The notes beneath the pieces were generated by a model. That model did not search any database. It was not told where the DNA came from and saw only the letters and a list, made by a program, of their open reading frames with translations. This document shows, one piece after another, positions 28,170 to 60,705 of a DNA stretch of 60,705 nucleotides. The first letter of the stretch is position 1, and each line of letters opens with the position of its first letter. Source of the stretch: Acidimicrobiia bacterium (GTDB lineage: Bacteria; Actinomycetota; Acidimicrobiia; Acidimicrobiales; Bin134); the NCBI GenBank assembly GCA_022819825.1, contig JAJEGM010000041.1, forward strand, positions 1 to 60,705, in the 5' to 3' direction. The position numbers and the translations under genes are program-made.

Positions 28170-29915
28170 CTACTGGGTGCCGCGCACCAGCCGGCCGGGC
28201 CGGGCCCCGGTGTCCTTGCCTTGGCTGCGGGTCACCTCGCCCGCCACAACGGTGGCCACATAGCCATCCGCCTGCTGGTCGAGCCGGCGTCCCCCGGCGG
28301 GCAAGTCGTACACCACCCGAGGAGAGCGCAAGGTCAGCGCCTGGTGGTCGATCACATTGGCGTCGGCCCGCTTGCCCACTTCAAGCGTTCCCCGATCGCC
28401 CAGCCCGTACAGGGAGGCGGTGTCGTGGGTCTGCTTCTTCACCACCCACTCCAGAGGGAGCTGCTCGCCCCGGGTACGGTCCCTGGTCCAGTGGGTGAGC
28501 ATGAAGGTGGGGATAGAGGCATCGCAGATCATGCCGCAGTGGGCCCCGCCGTCGGACAGCCCCGACACCCCGGCGGGGTGCAGCAGCTGCTCCCGGATGA
28601 CGTCGTGGTTCTCCTCGACGTAGTTGAACATGGGCAGCATCATCAGGGCACGGCCGTCGTCCTCCAGGGAGAGGTCGTACAGCATCTCCAGCGGATCCAC
28701 CCCGCGGGCTTCGGCCATGGCGGTCACGGTGCGGTCGTGGGTGGGCTCGTAGTCGGGCGGGTCGCCGATCACATACAGCTTGTGGATCATCGAAGCCACC
28801 ATGCTGGGCATCTGGTCGAACAGCACGCTGGGGTCGGGGGGCAGGTCGTCCTCGCCCAAGATGGCCGAACGGATCGCCGGCTTCTTGAGCTCAGCTACGA
28901 GCTGATCGAAGGGCAGATGGGCCAGCGACGCAAACGTGGGCCGCTTGGCGAATGCGTGGTTCGTTTGAAAGCCGATGAGCATCCCGAAGGGACGACCAGC
29001 AATTTGGGGATACACCCGGGCACCCTCGTCAACCGCCCGAAGCGACTCGTCCATCATCTCTCGCCACAAATCGGGAGCGGCCTCCAGTTGCAGCAGGGCG
29101 AACGACACTGGCACGTCGAAGTGGGCCGACAGTCGACGCATCCAGTCCATCTCCTTGGGCGGGGCCACTAGATCCAGCCCCGCCGCACCCGCCGGGGCCA
29201 GCTCGAACACCCCGGAAGCGGCATCGGCCAGCGCCTGGCCCAAACCGAACAGCTCGTCCTCAGCAGCAAAGGTGCCCGGCACCGGCTCGCCGTCGATGGC
29301 CCGGTGGCCCAGCGTGCGAGATGTGGACACGCCTAGCGCGCCAGCCTCTATGGCCTCGCGCACGATGGCGTACATGGCTTCGATGTCGTCGGGGGTGGCC
29401 GGCTCGTTCTTGGCCCCTCGATCCCCCATCACATAGCCCCGCACCGCGCCGTGGGCCACCTGAGCGGCCACGTCGATGGCCAGCTCGCGCTGTTCGACAA
29501 CATCGAGATACTCCGGGAAGCTCTCCCACCCCCAAGAGATGCCCTCAGATAGGGCCGCTCCGGGAATGTCCTCCACACCTTCCATCAGTTGGATGAGCCA
29601 GTCCTCTTTGCCGGGCTGTACCGGGGCGAACCCCACACCGCAGTTGCCCATCACCACGGTGGTCACGCCGTGGTTGGACGACGGCTGGAGCATGTCGTCC
29701 CAGGTGACCTGACCGTCGTAGTGGGTGTGGCAGTCCACAAAGCCGGGGGTCACCAGCAGCCCGGTGGCGTCGATGGTCTCGGCGGCCTCGGGAGCGGGAC
29801 CGCCGCTGCGGTCCACCACGGCCACTTTGCCGTCCTTGACCCCGATGTGGCCGACGAACCGGTCGGCGCCGGTCCCGTCCACCACGGTGCCGTTGGCAAT
29901 CACCAGATCCAGCAC
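28170..29915 (-). CDS. D-aminoacylase-type amidohydrolase, paralogue 1
   Basis: From the GTG at 29915 (GGGGAGGA seven bases upstream) the product has 581 residues. It belongs to the N-acyl-D-amino-acid deacylase group of amidohydrolases. His63 and His65 in DCHTHYDGQ and Cys92 in GNCGVG correspond to the known metal ligands of D-aminoacylase; SDGGAHCG lies near the C-terminus. An open frame reaches 36 codons further upstream but without a ribosome site. It is closely similar along its length to the next gene, evidence for a tandem duplication. The substrate is unknown; many members of this family are mis-named deacylases. Confidence 0.88.
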
Positions 29916-29964
29916 TGCTCTTCCTCCCCAGTTTGCTACTTGGCGTTGTTTCTTGTGTCTGCCG

Positions 29965-31698
29965 CTAGTTGGCGGCTCCGGCTCGGAGCAGCTTGCCGGG
30001 ACGGGCCCCGGTGTCTTCACCATTGCGACGGGTCACTACCCCGCTGACCAGCGTAGCGACATATCCGGTGGCCCTCTGATCGAACCGGCGGCCCCCTGCG
30101 GGCAGGTCGGCCACCAGCTTGGGCGGGTGCAGTGTCAGGTGCTCGTGGTCGATCACATTGATGTCGGCTTTCATGCCCGACTCCAGCGTGCCCCGGTCGG
30201 TGAGGCCGAAGAGGCGGGCGGTGTCATGCGACTGCTTGCGCACCACATACTCCAAGGGGAGCTTCTCGCCCCGTTGGCGGTCGCGAGCCCAGAAGGTGAG
30301 CAGCCAGGTGGGCATGGAGGCGTCGCAGATCGCCCCGCAGTGGGCCCCGCCGTCGGACAGCCCCGATACTCCCGACGGGTGCAGGAACATCTCCCGCACC
30401 GCGTCGGCGTTGCCGTGGCTGTAGTTGAGGAACGGGAACAGCAGGAGCGCCCGACCGTCATCCTCCAACAGCAAGTAATAGAGCAGATCCTCAGTCTCCC
30501 GCCCCTGGGCCTCGGCGATGGCGGCCACCGACCGCTCGGGACCGGGCTCGTAATCGGGGGGATCGCCCAACACATAGATCCGGTGGAGTTGGGTGCCCAT
30601 GTACTCGGCGAACTGATTGGTGAAGGAGCTTTCCTCCGACAGGATGGCGGCCTTGCGCTCAGGCCGGCGCAGCTCGGCTACCAGCTCTTCAAGAGGCAGC
30701 TCGGCAATCTCGGCGAAGCTGGGTCGGCTGCTGAAGGCGTGGTTGGTCTGAAGCCCGATCAGGATGCCGTTGCACCGAGGCGCAATTTGGGGGTGGAGCT
30801 GGGCGCCCTCGGCCACCGCATCGGCCGACAGGTCCATGATCTCCCGCCACAGCTCGGGGGCGGCGTCCACCTGCACCAGAGCGAAGGTCACCGGGCGTCC
30901 GGTGGCAGCCGACAGGCGGCGCATCCAGTCGACTTCTTTGTGGGGAGCGGCCAAGTCCTCGCCAATCACTCCGGCGGGGGCCAGCTCGTACAGGCCGTGC
31001 CCCACCTCGGTGAGCGCCTCGCCAATGCCGAACAGCTCGTCTTCGGCGGCATAAGTGCCAGGAACCGGCTCGCCGTCGATGGCCATGTGGGCGATGGTGC
31101 GCGACGTGGAGAACCCGAAAGCCCCCGCTCGCAACGCCTCGGCCACGATCTCGCGCATCTGATCGATGTCTTCCGGGGTGGCCGGTTCGTTCTTGGCCCC
31201 CCGCTCCCCCATCACGTAGGCCCGCACCGCGCCATGCGGTACCTGACAGCCGATATCAAGGGACAGGGGCTTGCGCTCCAGGGCATCGAGGTACTCGGGG
31301 AAGGTCTCCCATTCCCAGGTGATGCCCTCTGACAGCGCGGCGCCGGGGATGTCTTCCACCCCCTCCATGAGTTGGATGAGCCATTCCTCGGTGCCGGGAC
31401 GCACCGGGGCGAATCCCACCCCGCAGTTGCCCATCATCACGGTGGTCACCCCGTGGTGGGCCGACGGCTCCAGGATCGGATCCCAGGTCACCTGGCCGTC
31501 GTAGTGGGTGTGGCAGTCCACGAATCCGGGAGTCACTACCAACCCGAAGGCGTCGATGACCTCTTCGCCCTCCAGATCAGGATTGCCGCCCGGGTACACC
31601 CCAACGATCCGATCCCCGTCAACGACCACATCCCCCGTGAACGGCTCACCACCGGTGCCGTCCACAATCAAACCGCCCTTGATAACCAGGTCGTGCAT
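29965..31698 (-). CDS. D-aminoacylase-type amidohydrolase, paralogue 2
   Basis: A 577-residue paralogue of the preceding gene with the same landmarks at the same positions: His63 and His65 in DCHTHYDGQ, Cys92 in [26 protein letters not shown], and [14 protein letters not shown] near the end. Differences cluster in the central region (residues about 255-400), which may change substrate preference. It is the first gene of the minus-strand run 26873-31698 and is divergent from the arsC-like gene; the 88-base gap should carry both promoters. No strong ribosome site is visible before its ATG. Confidence 0.88.
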
Positions 31699-31786
31699 GA
31701 CGCCATGCTAGAGGGTGGCGTCTTCCACCGCCGATCTGCAGTAGCTCAGAACGGAACAATTTGCAGCACTGGAGTAACGTCGGGGG

Positions 31787-32137
31787 ATGGCTGAGATCAT
31801 CGTGTACCACAACCCCGGTTGAGGCAGTTCCCGGGGCGCGCTTGAGATCCTCGAGTCGCGGGGCGTCGAGTTCGACGTCGTCCAATACCTCCAGAACCCG
31901 CTGGGGCGGGACGACTTGGAGCGGTTCTTGGAGCTGCTGCCCAACGAGCCCACTGATCTGGTGCGGGAGGACAACAACTTCAAGGAACTCGGGCTGAACA
32001 TCGGCGACTACCAGAGTGCCGGTGCGGTGGTCGATCTGCTGCTGGAGCACCCCAAGCTGATGCAGCGCCCGGTGGTGGTCCGCGGCGACAAGGCCGTGAT
32101 TGCCCGCCCCTCCGAGCTCGTAGAGGAACTTCTGTGA
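31787..32137 (+). CDS. arsC: ArsC-family arsenate reductase with in-frame TGA at catalytic residue 12 (candidate selenoprotein)
   Basis: Starting at ATG 31787, codon 12 is TGA (31820-31822), and the frame then stays open to TGA at 32135-32137, giving 116 residues if read through. The sequence before and after the TGA is textbook ArsC: YHNPG-[TGA]-GSSRGALEIL. The TGA falls exactly where E. coli ArsC has catalytic Cys12. The three arsenate-binding arginines are conserved at identical numbers: Arg60 (DLVRED), Arg94 (MQRPVVV) and Arg107 (ARPSEL). The simplest reading is selenocysteine insertion. Sec at a thiol-redox site is chemically sensible. ArsC reduces arsenate to arsenite using glutaredoxin or a similar donor; some relatives act on other oxyanions or as Spx-like regulators. 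The RDD gene follows 10 bases downstream. Alternatives are a nonsense mutation, or a sequencing error in a TGC/TGT codon. Standard callers would report only 73 residues from 31916. Confidence 0.8.
31837..31860 (+). promoter_or_regulatory. Hairpin downstream of the arsC TGA (candidate bacterial SECIS)
   Basis: Fifteen bases after the TGA the RNA can form CGCG-CUUGAG-AUC-CUCGAG-U-CGCG: a 10-bp stem with a single bulged U on the 3' side and a 3-base loop. Bacterial SECIS elements occupy this position relative to UGA. However, the loop lacks the GGU typical of E. coli and the bulged U is on the opposite arm, so this is only a candidate. In a GC-rich genome such hairpins are also common by chance. 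Confidence 0.4.
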
Positions 32138-60489: not shown

Positions 60490-60562
<73 letters not shown>

Positions 60563-60705
60563 CTGTGTGATGTGTCAAGACATCGGAAAGGCGTGAACCT
60601 GCGCGGGCGGGTGTTTTTCATGGTTTGGGTTGGGGTTGGTAGTCGCGTTGGGGGTTGAGGACGAGGGTGCGGAGGAGTTCGCCGGTGGTGTGGTCGATGA
60701 CGCGG
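60563..60705 (-). mobile_element. Right end of an IS481-like insertion sequence, truncated by the window
   Basis: A transposase 3' end (60618 to the edge) is followed outward by about 45 non-coding bases including TGTGTCAAGACATCGG near 60572-60587, which resembles the TGTC-type terminal repeats of IS481 elements. The element stops just after the tRNA-Thr gene. The other end and the repeat partner are outside the window, so the boundary is approximate. Confidence 0.55.
60618..60705 (-). CDS. IS481-family transposase, C-terminal fragment
   Basis: The minus-strand frame from the right edge reads VIDHTTGELLRTL, then VLNPQRDYQP, then a stop at 60618-60620. This is the typical C-terminus of IS481-type DDE transposases (a TGE..R.L.L.P..DYQP pattern). 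Only the last 28 residues are in the window; the catalytic residues lie outside. Confidence 0.75.
   Translation of the reverse strand, partial: RVIDHTTGELLRTLVLNPQRDYQPQPKP

Follow-up and report, generated by a model that had tools for sequence, protein, structure and literature searches.

The stretch of DNA analysed here, referred to as the window, is 60,705 nucleotides long and carries a gene with an in-frame TGA that is very probably a genuine selenoprotein gene of the glutaredoxin-linked ArsC family, working by the mechanism set out below. In the predicted product, selenocysteine (Sec) stands at the position of the catalytic cysteine. The substitution itself is of less interest than the mosaic of Sec and Cys forms found among related genes and the missing link to arsenic. 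What is new here is the fixation of Sec in the genus of the window, the Sec/Cys mosaic over the class Acidimicrobiia, and the doubt about arsenic. The features of the gene are as follows.

31787..32137, plus strand: ArsC-family gene with Sec, encoding 116 residues (ATG start at 31787, TGA stop at 32135-32137)
31820..31822, plus strand: TGA within the frame at codon 12, where selenocysteine is predicted in place of the catalytic Cys (from the alignment and homologues)
31837..31860, plus strand: predicted SECIS hairpin, 24 nt with a one-base bulge (from the fold and the pairing in the genus)
31964..31966, plus strand: Arg60 codon (Arg in 143/143 class genes)
32066..32068, plus strand: Arg94 codon (Arg in 143/143 class genes)
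32105..32107, plus strand: Arg107 codon (Arg in 143/143 class genes)

Translation of 31787-32137 gives MAEIIVYHNPG-U-GSSRGALEIL..., and the frame is open except at codon 12, as the original prediction had described. Residues U12, G13, S14 and S15 form a UxxS motif, with a Ser three residues past the Sec. For the Pfam ArsC family (PF03960), whose cut-off is 24, the protein scores 47.6 bits. With C written for Sec, the top NCBIfam model is TIGR00014 (arsC), at 99.3 bits and below the curated 106.05, while the Spx model TIGR01617 gives 48.4 bits, under its cut-off of 75.05. In a phmmer search, residues 1-116 align to E. coli ArsC (1jzw, E 1.2e-18) and residue 12 falls on Cys12, which agrees with the earlier claim that the TGA lies exactly at the catalytic Cys. 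Arg60, Arg94 and Arg107 were likewise found at the E. coli ArsC numbers. The description of these landmarks as perfect is right for the Arg triad but goes too far for the match to TIGR00014, whose curated score is not reached. The predicted structure of the protein has a pLDDT of 94.0, and ArsC chains rank first among its matches in the PDB (Vibrio ArsC 3f0i_B, E 9.0e-11; E. coli 1i9d, TM 0.86), with Spx after these. Directly 5′ of the ATG, at 31775-31787, lies a TAACGT-CGGGGG stretch, which is kept in most of the plus-strand genus loci shown and could be the -10 element of a leaderless mRNA.

The genus set consists of 22 genomes, all of the window's genus. The gene is present in 19 of them, and all 19 copies carry the in-frame TGA at identities from 97 down to 63%. 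It is found in every one of the 16 genomes with at least 90% completeness and no more than 5% contamination; the three genomes with no ArsC match are represented by assemblies that are 84, 68 and 68% complete. The predicted Sec is fixed in this genus. Translated with the standard table 11, the frame would stop at codon 12, and the TGA could on that basis be taken for a true stop that arose by nonsense mutation or marks a pseudogene. This reading is rejected as extremely improbable, since the TGA is kept in 19/19 genus genes, the Arg triad is kept, and the codons downstream of it (27-116) have a median dS of 0.529 against a dN of 0.093 in the genus. Codons 27-116 are, by this measure, under purifying selection, and the decay of the downstream part that the original prediction proposed to look for in relatives is not seen in them. 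An error of sequencing or assembly at 31820-31822 has a probability close to nil, as the same TGA occurs in 18 other genus genomes. It also occurs in 55 of the 80 named loci retained from 186 relatives in a wider genome-contig scan, which partly covers the same genomes as the class set; the remaining loci have TGC (24) or TGT (1). Reading of the TGA as some other amino acid, such as tryptophan, is almost certainly wrong as well. The gene's own terminal stop is TGA, the position is TGA or a Cys codon in 143 homologues and never Trp, and the genome of the window has complete Sec machinery.

This machinery comprises all of the parts whose presence in the same genome had been proposed as a check. 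A tRNA-Sec was detected with Rfam at 67.5 bits (gathering cut-off 47), and ARAGORN agrees, giving the anticodon tca. SelA (400.4 bits), SelB (276.8 bits) and SelD (354.9 bits) each score above their cut-offs, and the SelA and SelB genes are adjacent on a single contig. The SelD gene has an in-frame TGA of its own (...HGAGUAGKL...) and is thus itself predicted to encode a Sec protein. In the window, a weak tRNA-Sec-like match at 60490-60563 comes from an ordinary tRNA-Thr.

Across the class, Sec-ArsC is tied to the Sec machinery. A tRNA-Sec was found in 60 of 66 genomes with Sec-ArsC and in 32 of 74 with only the stop-free form; the sequences are related, which makes p-values too small for this association, as for the codon-shuffle and strict SECIS-scan comparisons below. 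Here a tRNA-Sec was scored as present when its best E was under 1e-10, a threshold set by the analyst since the Rfam cut-off admits weaker hits. The tables for tRNA-Sec and for the arsenite exporter ACR3 cover 140 of the 142 matched genomes, G159 and G346 being without a listed row. Rows with no in-frame stop were counted as Cys, including G338, G199 and G229, in which the codon is unseen or unaligned, and G048, which has both forms, was counted as Sec. The six Sec-ArsC genomes in which tRNA-Sec was not found (G014, G367, G375, G283, G260 and G340) come from assemblies made up of 40 to 570 contigs, and the tRNA may have been missed for this reason.

Immediately 3′ of the TGA, Sec genes of several clades have a recurring, conserved hairpin. 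The hairpin downstream of the TGA in the window has a minimum free energy of -11.7 kcal/mol, and 1 of 200 shuffles was as good. Its lowest-energy loop is AUC, which has no G; an alternative fold at -9.8 kcal/mol has a 5-nt loop, GAUCC, with a spacing of 23. Over all 19 genus rows, 93.8% of the cells are paired. Covariation in the genus is weak, with 65 of 500 shuffles reaching as high a value, and the rows offer few differences by which to judge it. When the 60 nt from the window TGA are folded together, their stability does not exceed that of shuffles (z 0.04). The dS of codons 13-26 is 0.186; this low value is not specific to the hairpin, because codons 1-11 are equally low at 0.163.

In the class as a whole, when codons 13-26 were shuffled with the protein preserved, the mean z was -1.14 in Sec genes (n=79) and -0.16 in Cys genes (n=64), compared with 0.04 and -0.13, respectively, in a control stretch, values from related sequences whose p-values are too small. 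By this comparison Sec genes fold 3′ of the TGA beyond what the protein demands, whereas Cys genes do not. A strict scan for perfect-stem bSECIS elements, following the model in PMC13188914 and counting hairpins of -7.5 or lower, was passed by 40/79 Sec and 7/64 Cys genes, and by 0/79 and 6/64 in the control stretch, again among related sequences. Within the genus 1 of 19 genes passes; the window hairpin does not, because of its one-base bulge. Covariation was evaluated for 27 of the 29 genes of one clade (two near-identical ones were left out), for 19/19 of the genus, and for 18 of the 31 remaining Sec genes. In the 27-gene clade, a 7-pair stem with the loop GGUC lies 23 nt from the TGA, and 100% of the cells are paired. 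Two of its pairs show double changes in 10 cells (U-A to G-C in 8 and G-C to A-U in 2), a number that 0 of 500 shuffles equalled. In a third clade the hairpin is almost invariant, with the loop CGUG(C/A), and gives nothing by covariation because it does not vary.

In the class, a match was found in 142 of 395 genomes; the class fetch left out 17 of 150 listed match rows. The 145 hits read yielded 143 genes after one with a missing N-terminus (L068) and one misaligned (L104) were dropped. Codon 12 is TGA in 79 of these, TGC in 57 and TGT in 7, and no further codon occurs at this position. The check proposed earlier, whether relatives carry TGA or Cys codons here, thus found both and nothing else (79 and 64 of 143). 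Arg60, Arg94 and Arg107 are invariant in all 143. On a quick tree of 117 columns and 143 rows, the Sec/Cys state needs at least seven changes as the fewest; well-supported branches by themselves require only 2. Close relatives can differ in state. In the genus g5, genomes G072 (L133) and G401 (L123) have the TGA and a tRNA-Sec (E 2.0e-13 and 2.6e-13), while in G040 (L141) the codon is one for Cys and a tRNA-Sec was not detected (best E 1.5e-5). Such sister genomes make the Sec/Cys question testable with close enzymes.

Some genomes hold more than one copy. In five class genomes (those with loci L071, L078 and L081; G352, with L064 and L065; and G265, with L056 and L152) there are two Sec-ArsC paralogues, of the UGKS and UHAS types, and in four of the five the two genes share a contig, where they have opposite orientations and are separated by about 2-17 kb. 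In the wider scan, the record titles of the TGA forms name Actinomycetota, Binatota, Myxococcota, Pseudomonadota and Latescibacterota, and one more form, labelled Desulfurellaceae, is identical in sequence to that of Binatia. The Binatia chromosome OX638322.1 has two TGA ArsC loci (L184 and L187) near opposite ends of the record, and their displayed starts are identical.

Taken together, the Sec machinery, the TGA or Cys codons of the relatives and the absence of downstream decay argue for the original prediction of a true selenoprotein. In E. coli ArsC, the nucleophile at position 12 attacks arsenate held by three Arg residues, and a low-molecular-weight (LMW) thiol and a redoxin release arsenite. 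By analogy, the following mechanism is proposed for the window protein. SelB and tRNA-Sec would insert Sec at the UGA, directed by the hairpin about 14-38 nt downstream. Sec12 would occupy the place of the nucleophilic Cys of E. coli ArsC, beside the oxyanion-binding Arg60, Arg94 and Arg107. Its selenolate would attack an oxidised substrate, which may be arsenate, another oxyanion or an oxidised thiol; the earlier reading of the chemistry, that Sec would raise nucleophilicity at this site, appears right on this analogy. An outside thiol would then release the product, because the chain has no other Cys, as is also true of 67/79 class Sec proteins. This thiol is probably mycothiol acting with a redoxin, because an MshC-like gene (best E < 1e-120, with hits under the curated cut-off) is present in 21 of 22 genus genomes. 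A mycoredoxin-type protein was matched in 8 of the 22, all under the cut-off, and no such match was found in the genome of the window.

The natural substrate is a separate question. The original prediction named the protein an arsenate reductase, which is well founded as to the ArsC family and the Arg triad but does not extend to a physiological role in arsenic metabolism. Neither ACR3 (0/22) nor ArsB (0/22) was found in the genus genomes, and over the 395 class genomes ACR3 scores above its cut-off in 16/66 with Sec-ArsC, 18/74 with Cys-ArsC and 59/255 with neither, so that there is no association with this exporter (p 0.81). The controls for ACR3 and ArsB were positive in 7 and 6 of 14 genomes, and the sensitivity of the ArsB search is not fully certain because its control was silent in the E. 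coli genome.

The genes around ArsC do not name a function either. In the window, they comprise two Amidohydro_3 genes together with genes for an RDD protein, for two oligopeptide-type ABC ATPases and for a GNAT protein. The Amidohydro_3 genes are tandem paralogues, D-aminoacylase-like by eye, at 28170-30023 and 29965-31698 on the minus strand; their frames overlap by 59 bases and they are divergent from the ArsC gene. Across loci, a simple gene picker gave 677 neighbouring genes in 332 clusters, 90 of them common to at least two loci. The 30 most recurrent of these 90 were searched in Pfam, each through a single representative; no ArsB, ACR3/SBF or ArsR was found, and 5 of the 30 representatives had no Pfam match. 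No conserved neighbourhood that would name a function was found among these 30 clusters, and PADLOC gave no hit.

It is about an even call whether the protein is an ArsC-fold selenoprotein whose natural job is something other than arsenate reduction, namely that of a general selenol reductase of oxidised LMW thiols, other oxyanions or proteins. The absence of ACR3 and ArsB from the 22 genomes, the equal frequency of ACR3 with Sec-ArsC, Cys-ArsC or neither, and the lack of an arsenic gene among the 30 neighbour clusters searched all speak for such a role. Weighing on the other side, the Arg triad, which binds arsenate in E. coli ArsC, is invariant in 143/143 genes, arsenite may exit by other means (aquaglyceroporins, ArsP or methylation), and ArsB could have been overlooked given its silent control. 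Arsenate as the natural substrate is plausible but somewhat doubtful. It is tentatively suggested, with a little less than even confidence, that stand-alone ArsC proteins of Acidimicrobiia, whether Sec or Cys, are housekeeping selenol/thiol reductases not involved in arsenic resistance, in which Sec and Cys have been swapped several times. If this is true, the class offers a natural experiment for asking under what conditions, and for what reason, Sec is retained.

Whatever its substrate, the window gene belongs, judged by motif and family, to the Sec-ArsC family already predicted as ArsC 1 (UxxS). It had been treated as new in the original prediction, but Sec-ArsC proteins with this UxxS motif were already published in 2005. 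A Sargasso Sea study of that year presented a new family of 14 Sec arsenate reductases (COG1393, UxxS) and implicated selenium in arsenate reduction (PMC1088965). A Global Ocean Sampling (GOS) study of 2008 distinguished ArsC 1 (pfam03960, UxxS, 77 sequences) from ArsC 2 (UxxC, 42 sequences) (PMC2398784). The Sec-ArsC family is listed in two reviews (PMC9312934, PMC13188914), the latter of which, from 2026, describes the functions of nearly all such families as largely uncharacterised. Among the listings of open papers searched, none on Sec-ArsC in the present group was found.

The window protein resembles ArsC of the E. coli plasmid R773 type (1i9d, 1jzw) in fold (TM 0.86 to 1i9d), in the nucleophile at position 12 and in Arg60, Arg94 and Arg107. 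It differs in having Sec for Cys, in its 36% identity, and in the lack of an ars operon, with neither ACR3 nor ArsB found in the genus. Spx regulators share the ArsC fold (7f75_G, E 8.5e-7), but the window protein scores below the TIGR01617 cut-off. The arsenate reductase-like selenoproteins of ArsC 2 (cd03032, NF041106) are also ArsC-related and contain Sec; they have UxxC, with two redox residues, whereas the window protein has UxxS and no other Cys. With the predicted ArsC 1 proteins (COG1393, pfam03960), to which it is likened by motif and family, it shares Sec at the catalytic Cys, the UxxS motif, the Pfam family and a predicted hairpin 3′ of the UGA. The ArsC 1 proteins of those marine studies come from metagenome fragments, in contrast to the whole genomes considered here, which give a host genus, Sec machinery, gene neighbours and a class-wide Sec/Cys pattern. 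The family can thus be viewed in the whole-genome context of one clade, in which the predicted Sec is fixed and tied to the Sec machinery and the link to arsenic export is missing.
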